From positions 1 to 64,000 of the forward strand of contig JAJRCF010000008.1 of the NCBI GenBank assembly GCA_028679075.1: a stretch of DNA of 64,000 nucleotides. The letters run 5' to 3'. Positions 6,660 through 11,928 of this stretch are shown in pieces. The position numbers and the translations under genes are program-made. Origin of the DNA: Methanoregula sp. Lineage in GTDB: Archaea > Halobacteriota > Methanomicrobia > Methanomicrobiales > Methanospirillaceae. Within the stretch, counting starts at the first letter, position 1. Each line of letters begins with the position of its first letter. Under the pieces are notes generated by a model. The model did not search any database and was not told the DNA's origin. It was given only the letters and a program-made list of their open reading frames with translations.

Positions 6660-7145
6660 TCAATAATACGCGCCGGATAGAGCGGGGACCGTACCGGAAA
6701 TGGATCTCTTCTTTCTGCCATGCCCTGCCCGTTCGGCAGTATCCAGGGTAATCAGTTCTTCAGTTTTCCCCAGTGCATGGCAAACCATAGCAGCAGACCT
6801 GACAGGCGGGAACGGTAGGCAAATATTGAATATCCTCCCGGAAAAAGAGTCGGCTGCCTCAGGAACGGGCCGGGTTGGACAGAGATCTACGGATCCTTGC
6901 TGCAAAATCCCAGGCAATGATACGCTCTCCGCGATCGGCATTTGCCCTGTCGCAGGCAGACAATTGGAAACAGTGTATGATCCGCCTTGTGGCATACGAG
7001 GCGCTCGAAAACCTAAAAAATGGAAAGTAAGATTGCACGTCACCTATGAGAAGAACAGAGCGCCACAGGCAGGAAGTTGTCCGGCGGGTGCCGGGGACAG
7101 GATCCACGAGATGCAGGAAGAAAAAACAAAGGGAGGAGAGGGAAC
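6660..7145. other. Intergenic stretch without a convincing gene
   Basis: Open frames exist on both strands, but they overlap one another, have no ribosome binding site at a sensible start and have no recognisable motifs. GGGAGGAGAGG at about 7131-7141 is the ribosome binding site of the next gene. Confidence 0.5.
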
Positions 7146-7421
7146 ATGAGCACAATCGGGGTGTATGAGATCCCGCTGACAGCCCAGATACTTTACCGGA
7201 GGGGGATCATCCTGTCGAACCAGATGAAAGAGGAGGAAGCAGTGAAAAGCTTCCGGCAGGCGGTCCTCATCGCCCCGCGATTTGCCGGAGCGTACCGGGA
7301 GATGGGCATCTGCCTTACCCGGCTTGGGAGAGTTGAGGATGCGGCAGCCTGCTACCAGAAACTGGAACGGGTTGAGCCGATCAGGATAGGGTACACGAAT
7401 CCCTGTTGGAAGGAATCCTGA
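7146..7421 (+). CDS. Short TPR protein
   Basis: 91 residues with two TPR-like helix pairs (about 8-75): ILYRRGIILSNQMKEEEAVK and AYREMGICLTRLGRVEDAAA. The start ATG 7146 has a strong GGGAGGAG site just upstream; longer in-frame versions have none. It ends directly against the 20-bp inverted repeat at 7422. Partner unknown. Confidence 0.75.
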   Translation: MSTIGVYEIPLTAQILYRRGIILSNQMKEEEAVKSFRQAVLIAPRFAGAYREMGICLTRLGRVEDAAACYQKLERVEPIRIGYTNPCWKES

Positions 7422-7546
7422 GGGGGTCGGGCGGTGTACTTCCGATGCGAACAAACCGGTGTGATCCGGGTAAGTACCCTCGGAAATTTTCCCCCGGATC
7501 TGTTGGTCACGGGCAATAAAGTATCAAAGTACACCGCCCGACCCCC
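7422..7546. repeat. Fold-back element with perfect 20-bp inverted ends
   Basis: The 20 bases at 7422-7441 (beginning GGGGGTCGGGCGG) are the exact reverse complement of 7527-7546. Inside, GATCCGGG (7463-7470) pairs with CCCGGATC (7493-7500), and GGGTAAGTACCC is nearly self-complementary. A third, two-mismatch copy of the left arm lies at 7628-7646. No gene fits in the element. It may be a structured RNA, a large terminator of the TPR gene or a small non-autonomous repeat. Confidence 0.7.
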
Positions 7547-7854
7547 GCCAAAGCCCTCCCATTTCCGAGCCGGATTCGTGCAATTTCCCGTCTGAAGGAA
7601 GGGGTTGTCCTGGCTCCATGGGGGAACGGGGGTCGGATGGTGTACTAAAAGTGTGAGCGAGGAATGTCATATCAAAAAAGGTTTTCAACAGAGCAAATTT
7701 TTTTTATCCCGATCAGGATCGCGATTCGCAGAAACCGTACGGTTTCTTCTCATCCTCCCGGTCTGATGACCTGTCGGATTTGAAAAAATTCCCGATCAAT
7801 CAGGGTTTGGTTTTATAATATCAACCGGACCCTGCCTGGATTCAAATAAGGGGA
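7547..7854. other. Non-coding stretch downstream of the fold-back element
   Basis: Apart from the third arm copy (7628-7646), the stretch holds only AT-rich runs (for example near 7693-7707 and 7810-7822) and no supportable open frame. A TATA-like GGTTTTATAATATCAACC at about 7808-7825 faces no forward gene. Confidence 0.45.
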
Positions 7855-8814
7855 TCATGTTAGGCCAGGTGCACCTGCAACACCCCGCTTTTTCATGCGG
7901 ACTGAATAGACGATGAGTGCAAGCTCGCCATCCGGGGTGATGCTGTAGAGCTTTTCCTGTCCGCCTGCCGGATCTGACTCCTCCCGGATAAGGTTCCAGC
8001 CAACCAGTGCTGATACCAGGCGGGCGAATTCTTCCGGGAGAAGTTCATGCACGGCCGGGCCCTCATCTGCAGTGCGGACCGGGATCTGCCAGGCCTTTGT
8101 CTCGTTGAACAGCGTTGTTTCCGGTACCAGGGTACGGGTTTTTTTCCCTGACTCCTTTCCCCGGAAGAGGATGGTAAGGATCACGAGGTTGTGCGGGTTT
8201 GCCGGCAGGTATTTTATGGGGAGGGTCGGGACCGGCACCCGCCGTGCCGGGGAAGTCCCGAATGCATAATAACAGTCGCCCTCAACCCAGAGCGACATCG
8301 AGAGCAGTCCCAGCGAGAGCCGTTTTGGCCCGGCGGAGATATCGAACGAGTACCGTGCATCCGGGTGGTCGCTGAATATCCCGAGGACCGGGTCGCGGAT
8401 CGCGTCGAACGTTGCCGCATCGATCGTGACCAGCGCACAGGAGATCGTGCGGGAGAGGGAGATGGCATTTACTTTATCAACCGCATTGCGGATGGCGCAT
8501 TTCCACATTCTCTTCCGGGCATCGTCCCGGGTGGAATTGGTGTAGACCTCTTTTTCTGCAAAGATGATAGTGTGCGTGACGGTCCGGAGCACCTCAAGAA
8601 GAGCTGGATAGGCAGTATGGATACTGTCCCCGGCGCTGATGATGAGAATGTGCTCCTGCCGATCCATGGGTAGTATCTGTTGCCGGGCGATAAATGGCTG
8701 TCCGGTATCCACGTATCCCTGTTCCGGAGAAACCCTGCCCGGAAAGGAGGCCGTTTTTGCCCGGCGAGGGTAAACAACAATTCTTTTCCCTGATCTCCGC
8801 TCAATACTTCTCAT
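7855..8814 (-). CDS. CARF-like Rossmann sensor with C-terminal winged helix (tentative)
   Basis: 319 residues from ATG 8814. From residue about 50 there is a beta-alpha Rossmann-like half (HILIISAGDSIHTAYPALLE, then a strand near TIIFAEKEVY), and DISAGPKRLSLGLLSMSLW sits where CARF proteins carry their ligand-loop N/D-x-TGGTK-x-M motif. The C-terminal about 85 residues look like a winged helix (LLPEEFARLVSALVGWNLIREE). CARF domains bind cyclic oligoadenylates in CRISPR regulators, but stand-alone relatives exist and the resemblance here is by eye. GGGAGAG precedes ATG 8814 and 8820; an internal ATG 8667 lies closer to the conserved part but lacks a site. It is divergent from the amino-acid transporter and could regulate it. 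Confidence 0.5.
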   Translation of the reverse strand: MRSIERRSGKRIVVYPRRAKTASFPGRVSPEQGYVDTGQPFIARQQILPMDRQEHILIISAGDSIHTAYPALLEVLRTVTHTIIFAEKEVYTNSTRDDARKRMWKCAIRNAVDKVNAISLSRTISCALVTIDAATFDAIRDPVLGIFSDHPDARYSFDISAGPKRLSLGLLSMSLWVEGDCYYAFGTSPARRVPVPTLPIKYLPANPHNLVILTILFRGKESGKKTRTLVPETTLFNETKAWQIPVRTADEGPAVHELLPEEFARLVSALVGWNLIREESDPAGGQEKLYSITPDGELALIVYSVRMKKRGVAGAPGLT

Positions 8815-8872
8815 TACCATCTCTCCCTGAAAGCCCACCGGGCGGTTCGTGGATGAGTGAGGAAGCGTGAAA

Positions 8873-9553
8873 ATGGAAATCCTGTCCGTCCTTCTTGAGT
8901 GGGGCCCGTACCTGCTCGGCGGTATTGCAATAACGCTCGGGCTCACCATCTCGGCACTGGCCCTTGGTTTCTGCCTGGGACTCCCACTCGCACTCGGGCA
9001 GGTCTACGGCTCCCGGCCGGTCCGGTCCCTCATTGCTGTCTATGTCTGGTTCTTCCGCGGCCTTCCGACACTCATCCTCCTCTTCCTCTTTTACTTCGGT
9101 GTCTTCCCGGCCCTGGGTCTTGACTTCTCTGCGTTTGTCATCGGGGCAACGGTCCTCGGTCTCCGGGGTGCCGCATACCAGTCCCAGATCTTCCGGGCCG
9201 GGATCCAGTCCGTTGCTGAAGGGCAGATGACAGCAGCCCTCTCGCTTGGCATGACCCGGTGGGAGGCCGTCCAGTGCATCATCATCCCGCAGGCCCTGCG
9301 GATCTCCCTCCCCGGATGGTCCAACGAGTACCCGGAGCTCCTCACCGACTCCGCGGTCTGTTACGCCATCGGCGTAGCGGAACTCATGACCCGGACCTCC
9401 CAGATCGTAAGCGTGACGTACATGACAATGCCGATCTACATTGCCTGTGCCCTGATCTTCATTGCCCTCAATTACGGGGGCATGCGGGTTATCCGGAAGG
9501 CAGAAGAACGGTTTGCCATACCGGGCTTTGGCGGGAAGGCGGTGCAGCCATGA
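8873..9553 (+). CDS. Polar amino-acid ABC transporter permease (HisM/HisQ family)
   Basis: 226 residues, five or so membrane helices. It has the His/Glu/Gln/Arg/opine permease features: an N-terminal helix with GGIAITLGLTISALALG, WFFRGLPTLILLF, and the EAA loop AEGQMTAALSLGMTRWEAVQ contacting the ATPase. ATG 8873 has GTGAGG ten bases upstream; GTG 8867 is in frame but too near that site. The stop overlaps the ATPase start (ATGA). With the second permease at 10308 it would form the membrane heterodimer. Confidence 0.88.
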   Translation: MEILSVLLEWGPYLLGGIAITLGLTISALALGFCLGLPLALGQVYGSRPVRSLIAVYVWFFRGLPTLILLFLFYFGVFPALGLDFSAFVIGATVLGLRGAAYQSQIFRAGIQSVAEGQMTAALSLGMTRWEAVQCIIIPQALRISLPGWSNEYPELLTDSAVCYAIGVAELMTRTSQIVSVTYMTMPIYIACALIFIALNYGGMRVIRKAEERFAIPGFGGKAVQP

Positions 9554-10293
9554 CCGGAGAATATATTCTCAGGGTAGAGGATATCCATAAAAAATTCAAT
9601 GACCGCGAAATCCTCCGGGGGATCTCGTTTAACGTGAAGAAAGGCGCGACCATCGTCTTCATCGGCCCCTCGGGGACCGGGAAGAGCACGCTCCTGCGCT
9701 GCATCAACCAGCTGACAGAGCCCGACCGGGGGAAGGTCTTCCTTGACGATGAGGAGATCACCGGGTGCGGTTCCCGGATCAGCGGGTACCGCCAGCGCAT
9801 CGGCATGGTCTTCCAGAACTTCAACCTCTTCGACCACCTGACCGCAGTCGAGAATGTCGAGATCGCCCCGATCAAGGTGCGGAAGATGAAGAAGGAGGAG
9901 GCCCATGCCAAGGCCATGGAAGAGCTCCACCGGGTGGGGATGGCGGACTGGGCGCATCATTACCCGGCCGAACTCTCAGGCGGGCAGGCCCAGCGGGTCT
10001 CGATTGCCCGCTGCCTTGCCATGGACCCCGAGGTGATCCTGTTCGATGAACCTACGTCGGCACTGGACCCCGAGCTGACCCGCGAGGTGCTGGAAGTCAT
10101 GAAGGACCTTGCCCGGAGCGGGATGACCATGCTCGTCGTCTCCCATGAGATGGGTTTTGCCCGTTCGGTGGCAACTGAGATCATTTTCATGGAAGGCGGC
10201 CGGATTGTCGAGCAGGGCTCTCCCCTTGAGATCATGAACAACCCGAAACACCCGAGGACCCGGGAATTTCTCGGCCGGATAGAACACACCTGA
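9550..10293 (+). CDS. Polar amino-acid ABC transporter ATP-binding protein
   Basis: 247 residues, full length for GlnQ/HisP-type ATPases. Walker A GPSGTGKST at about 37-45, Q loop VFQNFNLFDHLT, signature LSGGQAQRVSIARCLAM, Walker B VILFDEPTSALD and the switch His in VVSHEMGFAR are all present. It hydrolyses ATP to drive uptake through the two flanking permeases. The ATG overlaps the stop of the first permease by four bases; the second permease begins 14 bases after its stop. Confidence 0.92.
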   Translation: MTGEYILRVEDIHKKFNDREILRGISFNVKKGATIVFIGPSGTGKSTLLRCINQLTEPDRGKVFLDDEEITGCGSRISGYRQRIGMVFQNFNLFDHLTAVENVEIAPIKVRKMKKEEAHAKAMEELHRVGMADWAHHYPAELSGGQAQRVSIARCLAMDPEVILFDEPTSALDPELTREVLEVMKDLARSGMTMLVVSHEMGFARSVATEIIFMEGGRIVEQGSPLEIMNNPKHPRTREFLGRIEHT

Positions 10294-10307
10294 CGGCTTT
10301 TCCCATC

Positions 10308-10979
10308 ATGGACCCTATCACCTTTCTCACCCAGATCCTGGCCCCGGCTCTCTGGAAGGGGCTCATCGTCACAGTCGCACTGGTAGTCCTTACCGCGCCG
10401 TTCGGGCTCCTGCTCGGGACCGGTCTCGCTCTCGGGAGACAGTACGGGGGAAGAGCGCTCTCGACGGCCTGCTCCGGCTATATCGTTTTTTTCAAGGGCT
10501 GCCCGCTCCTTCTCCTTCTCTTTATTCTCTACTTCGGTCTCCCCTCACTTGGCCTCACCCTCCCCGCATTCACCGCTGCCGTTATCGGGTTTATCCTCTG
10601 CAATGCGGCCTACAACTCCGAATATATCCAGGGCGCTGTTGCCTCGATAAAGGACGGGCAGATGACCGCTGCGCAGGCACTCGGTATGACACGGGCACAG
10701 GCAATAAAATCGATCATCCTCCCCCAGGCAATGCGGCGGGCAATCCCCGGGCTCTCGAACGAGTTCATCTACCTGATCAAGTATTCTTCACTTGCCTACA
10801 TGATCACGGTTGTCGAGCTCACGGGGGCAGCCAAGATCGCTGCAACCAGGTATTTCATGTTCAACGAGTCCTTCTTCGCCGTGGGGATCGTGTACCTCGC
10901 ACTGGTCACCCTCACTACGTATGCCGTGGGCCGGCTGGAGCAGCGGGTCGCCATCCCGGGGATGGGTGTGAAAACCTGA
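10308..10979 (+). CDS. Polar amino-acid ABC transporter permease, second subunit
   Basis: 223 residues with the same HisM/HisQ fold as the gene at 8873 but clearly diverged. The EAA loop is KDGQMTAAQALGMTRAQAIK, and FFKGCPLLLLLFILYFG matches the helix of the partner. Last gene of the permease-ATPase-permease operon; it ends convergently 35 bases from the binding-protein gene. Confidence 0.88.
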   Translation: MDPITFLTQILAPALWKGLIVTVALVVLTAPFGLLLGTGLALGRQYGGRALSTACSGYIVFFKGCPLLLLLFILYFGLPSLGLTLPAFTAAVIGFILCNAAYNSEYIQGAVASIKDGQMTAAQALGMTRAQAIKSIILPQAMRRAIPGLSNEFIYLIKYSSLAYMITVVELTGAAKIAATRYFMFNESFFAVGIVYLALVTLTTYAVGRLEQRVAIPGMGVKT

Positions 10980-11014
10980 GCTGAAAAAAGGAAAGGACCT
11001 CCTGAAGGACACCC

Positions 11015-11827
11015 TTACTGCATATTATATTTGATAATGAGTTCCTGCCAGTAGGGATCGGCCTTCAGCTGGGCGAGACCATCATTGAGGGTGGCAAGAA
11101 GTTCCGGATCGGATCTCCGGACTGCAATGCCGAACTGCTCCTGTGTCCCGATGCTGCCCAGCGTCCGGACTGGCCTGCCGGTTATCATTGTCTGGAGTGC
11201 ATGGTCATCGTATATGACGGCATCCACCCTTCCTGCCATGAGGTCTTCGAGGGCAAGCGGGGTGTTGGCATAATGTTTCAGCCCGTCCTCCGGCATCTTA
11301 TTCGTCATGATCAGGTTGGTGTCAACCCAGATGGCAGCAGTACAACCATCCTGTGCGCCGATGATCGTGTTTCCTGCCCGGACATCGTCAAGGGTGATCG
11401 AGGAGTCGTTTCTTACCACCACATCCTGGCGGACCTCCCAGTACGGGGTGCTGAAGTTGACCTGTTCAGCCCGCTCCGGAGTGATGGTCATACCCGAATA
11501 GACAAGGTCGATCTTGCCGGCCTGCAGAGAAGGGATGATCCCGTCCCATGCCGTTGGCTGGAACCTGATAGTAAGTCCCTTCTTCCCGGCAATCCATTTC
11601 ATGGAATCGACATCGAACCCTTTCGGGTTACCCCCGGAGTCAAGATAACTGAACGGTGTGTAATCCCCATCGATACCAACCACGAGAGTCTTCTGCGGGA
11701 ACCGGGCTGCAGGATCTCCCGGAGATGTGGCAGTTGCGTCAGAATCGCCTGAACTACATCCGGCAACGACAAGGAGCAGCCCGAGCATGATCAATGCAAT
11801 GACACCCGGGAGAAGGGAACCTCTCAT
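11015..11827 (-). CDS. Amino-acid ABC transporter substrate-binding lipoprotein
   Basis: 270 residues, SBP family 3. The N-terminus is a signal peptide ending in a lipobox LLVVAGCSS (Cys near residue 24), so it is anchored outside the membrane. Family motifs: VVGIDGDYTPFSYLDSGGNP, GFDVDSMKWIAGK, WDGIIPSLQAGKIDLVYSGM. ATG 11827 has GGAAGGT eight bases upstream, better than ATG 11854. It lies on the opposite strand to the permease operon, tail to tail, so its expression is set separately. Substrate class: polar amino acid; exact ligand not predictable. Confidence 0.88.
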   Translation of the reverse strand: MRGSLLPGVIALIMLGLLLVVAGCSSGDSDATATSPGDPAARFPQKTLVVGIDGDYTPFSYLDSGGNPKGFDVDSMKWIAGKKGLTIRFQPTAWDGIIPSLQAGKIDLVYSGMTITPERAEQVNFSTPYWEVRQDVVVRNDSSITLDDVRAGNTIIGAQDGCTAAIWVDTNLIMTNKMPEDGLKHYANTPLALEDLMAGRVDAVIYDDHALQTMITGRPVRTLGSIGTQEQFGIAVRRSDPELLATLNDGLAQLKADPYWQELIIKYNMQ

Positions 11828-11907
11828 CTGTAATACCTTCCGGCCCGGAAACAAAAGACCTTACGATTCGGGCGGATTGTATTTGACCGGTAATGATGAT
11901 CACAGGA

Positions 11908-11926
11908 AAGAATAAAAAAAAATGTT
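11908..11926 (-). terminator. T-run terminator of hppA
   Basis: Directly after the hppA stop (minus strand) comes a run of nine T residues (11914-11922 as A on the plus strand) within a T-rich stretch, a typical archaeal termination signal. Confidence 0.5.
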
Positions 11927-11928
11927 GT

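Follow-up and report, generated by a model that had tools for sequence, protein, structure and literature searches.

What is the three-fold repeat that follows a TPR gene in the Methanoregula stretch of 64,000 nucleotides analysed here (the window), an RNA hairpin, the product of duplication or mobility, or a site on the double-stranded DNA? A small TPR open reading frame (7077-7421, TGA at 7419-7421) is directly followed, from 7422, by an arm (7422-7441) that is the exact complement of a second arm at 7527-7546, with 85 bases between, and a third copy changed at 2 positions is located at 7628-7646. These arms, the start of the first one directly behind the stop codon and the two changes had been described in an earlier note and were reproduced in every detail.

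Three-arm modules in Methanoregula genomes

The window element is divided into arm 1 on the forward strand (7422-7439, core GGGGGTCGGGCGGTGTAC, shorter than the arm of the earlier note by the extra TT), interior A of 89 bp (7440-7528), the inverted arm 2 on the reverse strand (7529-7546), which is the perfect complement of arm 1, interior B of 81 bp (7547-7627) and the forward arm 3 (7628-7645, with the two changes in GGATGG). Both interiors belong to the short length classes. On the right side the module is adjoined by the end of a carrier MITE (7646-7696, forward, with the terminal inverted repeat ..GGTTTTCAACAGAGCA). Further to the right, at 7725-7796, lies a short repeat of a separate intergenic family, which contains the palindrome AAACCGTACGGTTT and matches loci L122, L071, L160 and L128 over about 35-72 bp at 79-94% identity.

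Other copies of the arm and of the element, for which the earlier note had proposed a search, were present both in the same genome and in relatives. In the window genome (G000; 2.50 Mb in 40 contigs, 90% complete), the 19-base arm gave 41 matches with three or fewer mismatches against 0 for the reversed control, and the 246-bp element gave eight near-full matches at 82-100% identity, its own copy included; the fold-back is therefore not a product of chance. The arms of this type (type I) form 13 three-arm clusters in G000 (12 fetched loci plus the window), every one in the order + - + and in one direction; a further three arms stand alone. A second arm type, GGGGGTCGCRTGGGTAC / GGGGGTCGCRTGGGTACA (type II), was first met in a relative and shows the same architecture; its 16 matches in G000 include five three-arm clusters, bringing the total for this genome to 18 three-arm modules. 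Among all fetched loci we found 92 clusters with at least two arms. Of these, 66 carry three arms, all 66 in alternating orientation, 21 of the 25 two-arm clusters are inverted pairs, and a single four-arm cluster reads +-++. The borders of the arm are sharp, and variation is almost restricted to the central bases, GGGGGTC and GGTGTAC being nearly invariant; by inspection the consensus has no self-complementarity, the arm being not palindromic. Mixed types are possible, as indicated by a MITE-borne module in G018 and G021 that combines a type I arm 1 with type II-like arms 2 and 3.

Type I arms are present in 22 of 39 genomes of the genus and not in the other 17, and type II arms in 27 of 39 (in some of these as one or two weak matches) and not in the other 12, many of the compared genomes being incomplete assemblies. 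Outside the genus, type II arms were detected in 5 of 69 other genomes of the family, with a three-arm cluster in G064. Within 84,980 species genomes, the exact 20-base arm was found in 42 stretches, all labelled Methanoregula, Methanomicrobiales or Methanoregulaceae. No match to the 246-bp element was found in 24 genomes drawn from the order's other families, and a loose-pattern search over the order gave background only outside the genus. The arm family is rare outside Methanoregula, and its relatives are almost confined to this genus. An origin from phages or plasmids was rejected, as phages and plasmids gave no match and viral contigs carried no exact arm. Clustering on the chromosome was also considered after four one-contig genomes had seemed module-free near coordinate 0; it was dropped after type I matches narrowed the gap in G062.

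Two unusual arrangements were noted among the fetched loci. At L087 1445-1520 (G035 C1 near 469200), a normal + - + type II module is followed 28 bp on by a direct arm copy, and the array continues with an arm-like third unit, forming a short tandem arm array. At L095 5586 and 6886 and at L042 2425, single arms precede a common stretch (GGCAGRCCGGGAACGCTCTGTAATTTTGRCGAGTTGG with variants) that does not resemble the standard module and may belong to a third architecture.

Spacing, dyad motif and helical phase of the interiors

For the analyses of motif, half-complementarity, spacing and A/T content, MITE copies except one representative were left out together with L095, and 54 of the 66 three-arm modules were kept for the spacing, A/T-phase and non-redundant analyses, in which the four-arm cluster was never counted. 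The distances between arms are discrete. For arm 1 to arm 2 they fall into classes of 103-108, 131, 141-144, 151-155 and 164-165 bp, and for arm 2 to arm 3 into classes of 74-76, 96-100, 109 and 117-123 bp (n=54). By themselves these classes weakly favour a period of 11-12 bp (0.017 and 0.02), and the half intervals differ in increments of roughly one or two helical turns.

The middle of each interval carries a motif. Gibbs sampling with 25 modules (25 starts for the real sets, 12 for the controls) gave TTTTACGACGGAAA in the middle of interval B with a score of 309.6, against 211-216 in four shuffled sets, and a score of 273.2 in the middle of interval A, against 220-233 after shuffling. When the search was confined to within 12 bp of the interval middle, omitting interiors shorter than 76 bp, the motif, herein referred to as M, appeared as an approximate dyad, ATTTTACG-n-CGnnAAAT (about TTTTACGnCGnAAAA). 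Almost every copy has M in one orientation and at one offset within A, and likewise within B; of the 27 type II B interiors, for instance, 26 have M starting at offset 33-34 and the sole long one has it at 45. In the window copy, M is placed approximately, from its position in each length class, at 7472-7488 in interior A (centre near 7480) and at 7584-7598 in interior B (centre near 7591). An invertible, phase-variable element was rejected, since the asymmetric offset of M is constant in nearly all interiors and related interiors align in one orientation.

Around M the interiors show a helical alternation of A/T content. In the arm-aligned profile, again with interiors below 76 bp omitted, the peak period is 10.5-11.0 bp in all six type-by-length classes, including the short A class of the window copy, and only 0 to 0.5% of rotated controls were as strong. 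The phase maxima are close between the two arm types (6.5 and 5.8 for B, 2.0 and 0.9 for short A, 0.9 and 0.6 for long A). After masking of M, the phasing persisted in four of the six class tests (0.002, 0.009, 0.000 and 0.004) and fell below significance in two (0.168 and 0.134). The periodicity is absent from the left flanks of both types (0.42 and 0.45) and from the right flank of type II (0.21). The analysis was repeated with a non-redundant set of 26 modules, from which related copies were removed in part by taking one module per neighbour group, the groups being typed from the neighbour-protein comparison, at less than 60% identity; a stricter cut-off of 0.52 leaves 9 modules. In this set, the periodicity was equalled by 0 of 2000 rotated controls for short B (n=22), by 0.4% for short A (n=9) and by 0.25% for long A (n=10), and it is absent from the four A interiors of the 125-bp class (52% of controls). 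Centred on M, as positioned by length class, the profile of 49 non-redundant interiors (those below 76 bp and two type I A interiors of 113 and 123 bp omitted) repeats every 11.1 bp (bootstrap 10.9-11.3) and peaks in A/T near -41, -28, -16, -6, +7, +16, +27 and +40. The mirror correlation of this profile is 0.84; outside the central 21 bp it is r = 0.71, a value equalled by 12% of the ±8-bp shift controls.

Conservation at shared loci, mobility and RNA

Modules of different genomes were compared where a same-side neighbour gene is common to both. In the seven such pairs, which are not fully independent because genomes and one locus recur among them, the arms are identical at 357 of 372 bases (96%) as against 871 of 1287 aligned bases (68%) for the interiors. 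From nine initial pairs (456/477 arm and 1211/1715 interior bases), L183/L188 had been removed as lying in one genome and L113/L130 as having the neighbour on opposite sides. As judged from these alignments, the module behaves as a DNA site under selection. The neighbour proteins include a MoaA-like radical SAM protein, a SpoU methylase, GAPDH and a SIS protein, and by inspection others resemble SerA and PheS. Similar neighbours recur in 23 groups, of which 22 link loci of different genomes and one consists of two paralogues at one locus; some of the recurring groups may be paralogues. The orientations of the flanking genes are even (13, 12, 12 and 11, counted for 48 of the 66 three-arm modules, those whose two neighbours lie at most 800 bp away, genes being called by a small purpose-made gene finder), which argues against a role as promoter or terminator, and such an element was rejected as every flanking orientation occurs. 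A consensus scan designed around bacterial signals detected no terminator-like site in the module.

The earlier note had taken the three arms as a sign of duplication or mobility rather than of a simple terminator. A repeated element, other than a terminator and with a mobile past, is indeed what we found, the mobility being indicated by the right MITE end of the window copy and by the 8-bp target duplications of related copies; local duplication did not hold, as three arms are the fixed + - + plan of the family (66/66 clusters). A MITE-borne copy at C18 matches the window copy at 96% identity. The window copy keeps the right MITE end and lacks the left one, the apparent left end being a chance match. 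Among the type I modules of G000, seven have the TGCTCTG..CAGAGCA flanks on both sides, the window copy and L073 on the right only, and four on neither side. Ten measured copies with both ends, from two genomes, are 332-336 bp long, and six of them are flanked by an exact 8-bp repeat, the putative target duplication; in three others this repeat is shorter, and L077 has none. L070 is devoid of a clear right MITE end. In total, 14 MITE-end-like matches were found in G000, and of three arm-free places inspected over 300-360 bases two resemble other short MITEs. Two elements, L132 (G000 C9:54463-54688) and L133 (G000 C4 near 111283), have TGCTCTG..CAGAGC ends around unrelated, arm-free interiors, and apparently represent one MITE family with several cargoes.

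In the relatives L213, L214 and L215, the TPR gene is located about 0.1 kb from a membrane pyrophosphatase gene, whereas in the window the two are separated by about 4.5 kb (7422-11928), which hold, besides the module, a gene that matches no Pfam entry and an ABC transporter whose binding protein belongs to family 3. The module and the transporter block of the window thus lie between otherwise adjacent genes, and no clean empty site for the window locus could be defined in L213, L214 or L215. We suppose that the window copy owes its spread to a MITE carrying the module, and that the left MITE end was then lost in a rearrangement with its junction at arm 1.

The module might itself be the substrate of a site-specific recombinase or transposase, such that a single arm is the empty site, insertion leaves direct arms at both ends and the phasing serves a synaptic complex. 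Consistent with such a mobile cassette, every three-arm module is bounded by direct arms, the single-arm MITE copies L074 and L081 resemble fusions of arm 1 and arm 3, mosaic junctions coincide with arms in the window copy and in L073, and in at least three neighbourhoods a type I module in one genome corresponds to a type II module in another, once in flipped orientation (L139/L190). Against it, the gene neighbours are common between genomes despite the strong divergence of interiors, and the offset and orientation of M hardly vary; altogether we consider a cassette of this kind unlikely. Still less credit is given to a purely selfish MITE family, in which arms and phasing would be by-products of descent: several copies do have MITE flanks with 8-bp target duplications, but 4 of the 13 type I modules of G000 lack a MITE flank and 2 of the 13 have the right flank only, and arms, M and phase persist while the interiors diverge.

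The proposal that the structure may be an RNA failed. The supposed RNA would be a structured gene or a regulatory hairpin pair, in which arm 2 pairs alternately with arm 1 and arm 3. The perfect pairing of arms 1 and 2 and the whole window hairpin (z = -7.05 against dinucleotide shuffles) speak in its favour, but this z value is due to the arms because the interiors alone fold like shuffles. The earlier note had also seen the interior fold on itself; the complementary segments GATCCGGG/CCCGGATC do exist, and the fold is unremarkable in the window copy (z = -0.55 for interior A and 0.01 for B), the other module copies having been folded without shuffle comparison. Conserved pairing, whose absence the earlier note had listed among its refuting conditions, was not detected beyond the level of shuffles or swapped halves. 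The complementarity of interior halves, with motif positions set by length class and some by hand, is not above that of halves swapped between copies (p = 0.44 for 25 A and p = 0.89 for 24 B interiors). The same change in both arms was found in 3 of 1296 cells (shuffle mean 1.9) against 62 one-sided changes for 36 type I modules, and in 15 of 986 cells (shuffle mean 17) against 84 one-sided for 29 type II modules. In Rfam, the window region is empty and nine module loci give tRNAs only. With pairing neither conserved nor compensated and no described family matched, a structured RNA was rejected as very improbable. The family would rather illustrate that what looks like a perfect genomic hairpin may consist of two protein sites.

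Proposed nucleoprotein wrapping and comparison with known systems

The architecture of the module, its discrete spacings, the position of M, the in-register 11.1-bp phasing, the conservation of arms over interiors and the lack of conserved RNA pairing were computed here. Because the arms are specific and alternate in orientation, and because a central dyad and a fixed helical phase go together with otherwise free letters, we read the module as a wrapped nucleoprotein: it is probably a site on double-stranded DNA, an intergenic platform for wrapping, rather than an RNA. Three arms of 17/18 bp in alternating direction would be recognised by a sequence-specific protein, and the DNA of either interval would be wound, in phase with the helix, about a protein core of two-fold symmetry with M at its centre. 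The role may be in chromosome organisation or in the control of supercoiling. For the wrapping core, DNA gyrase is the best candidate, and an archaeal histone less likely. Against this wrapping model we count the occurrence of single-arm sites, the absence of arms from some genomes of the genus, and a 12.5-bp A/T signal in the right flank of type I (0.003). The weak spacing period, the two masked class tests without significant phasing, the unphased 125-bp A class and the share of shift controls that reach the outer mirror correlation also weigh against it. A more detailed version, which we offer tentatively and hold to be rather doubtful, is that each chromosome carries about 20 dedicated double wrapping stations, in which pairs of strong gyrase sites lie between directional arms recognised by a dedicated DNA-binding protein, with two arm specificities for one core, and that these stations were captured and spread by a transposon.

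If this more detailed version is correct, supercoiling or condensation would be set at fixed intergenic points, and archaea would have a dedicated, sequence-defined site of chromosome topology. Sequence-defined sites for chromosome organisation or supercoiling are well studied in bacteria. Among the titles and abstract openings found by searching an open-access library, none describes a comparable family in archaea or methanogens. The family provides exact coordinates, two arm specificities and natural spacing variants in steps of about one turn, and the arms could be used as bait for isolation of the putative binding protein.

The modules resemble MITEs in the terminal TGCTCTG..CAGAGCA flanks of seven G000 copies and in the right flank of the window copy and L073, but differ in that other modules are without such ends, while the same ends also carry unrelated interiors. 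With nucleosome or archaeal histone positioning they share the phased A/T around a dyad; the positioning period is about 10.2 bp, compared with 11.1 bp in the Methanoregula modules, and sequence-specific arms and an alternating plan are not known for histones.

Bacterial interspersed mosaic elements (BIMEs) are composed of regularly spaced REPs in alternating orientation (PMC2817692). BIME-1 is bound by IHF between two REPs and BIME-2 by gyrase (PMC2817692, PMC6379681), and the latter source gives gyrase cuts as over-represented in BIME-2 (PMC6379681). Both families consist of short units that are extragenic, dispersed, regularly spaced and alternating in orientation. The REP unit is a palindrome, whereas the Methanoregula arms are not; the modules have a central dyad, 11-bp phasing between arms and a fixed three-arm plan; and there are 18 archaeal three-arm modules as against more than 100 copies of BIME. 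The Y1 transposase (PF01797, RAYT) was not found in G000, a genome 90% complete, and was found in 5 of 39 genomes of the genus. A REP/RAYT system was rejected, as this transposase was not found in G000.

Gyrase is listed, at the level of orders, as common to Methanomicrobiales and Methanosarcinales (PMC2686161). The E. coli gyrase motif is described as a degenerate pattern of 130 bp, symmetric about the cleavage site, with G/C changes of 10.75-bp period in two flanking regions that were likened to nucleosomes; conserved flanking arms or pairing do not appear in the passages considered (PMC6379681). The motif is that of E. coli and not of an archaeon. The two agree in their extent of about 130 bp around a centre and in the alternation of A/T and G/C with the helical turn, at 10.75 bp for E. 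coli and 11.1 bp for the module, and the Methanoregula modules do show helical-period variation in G/C over about 130 bp around their centre.
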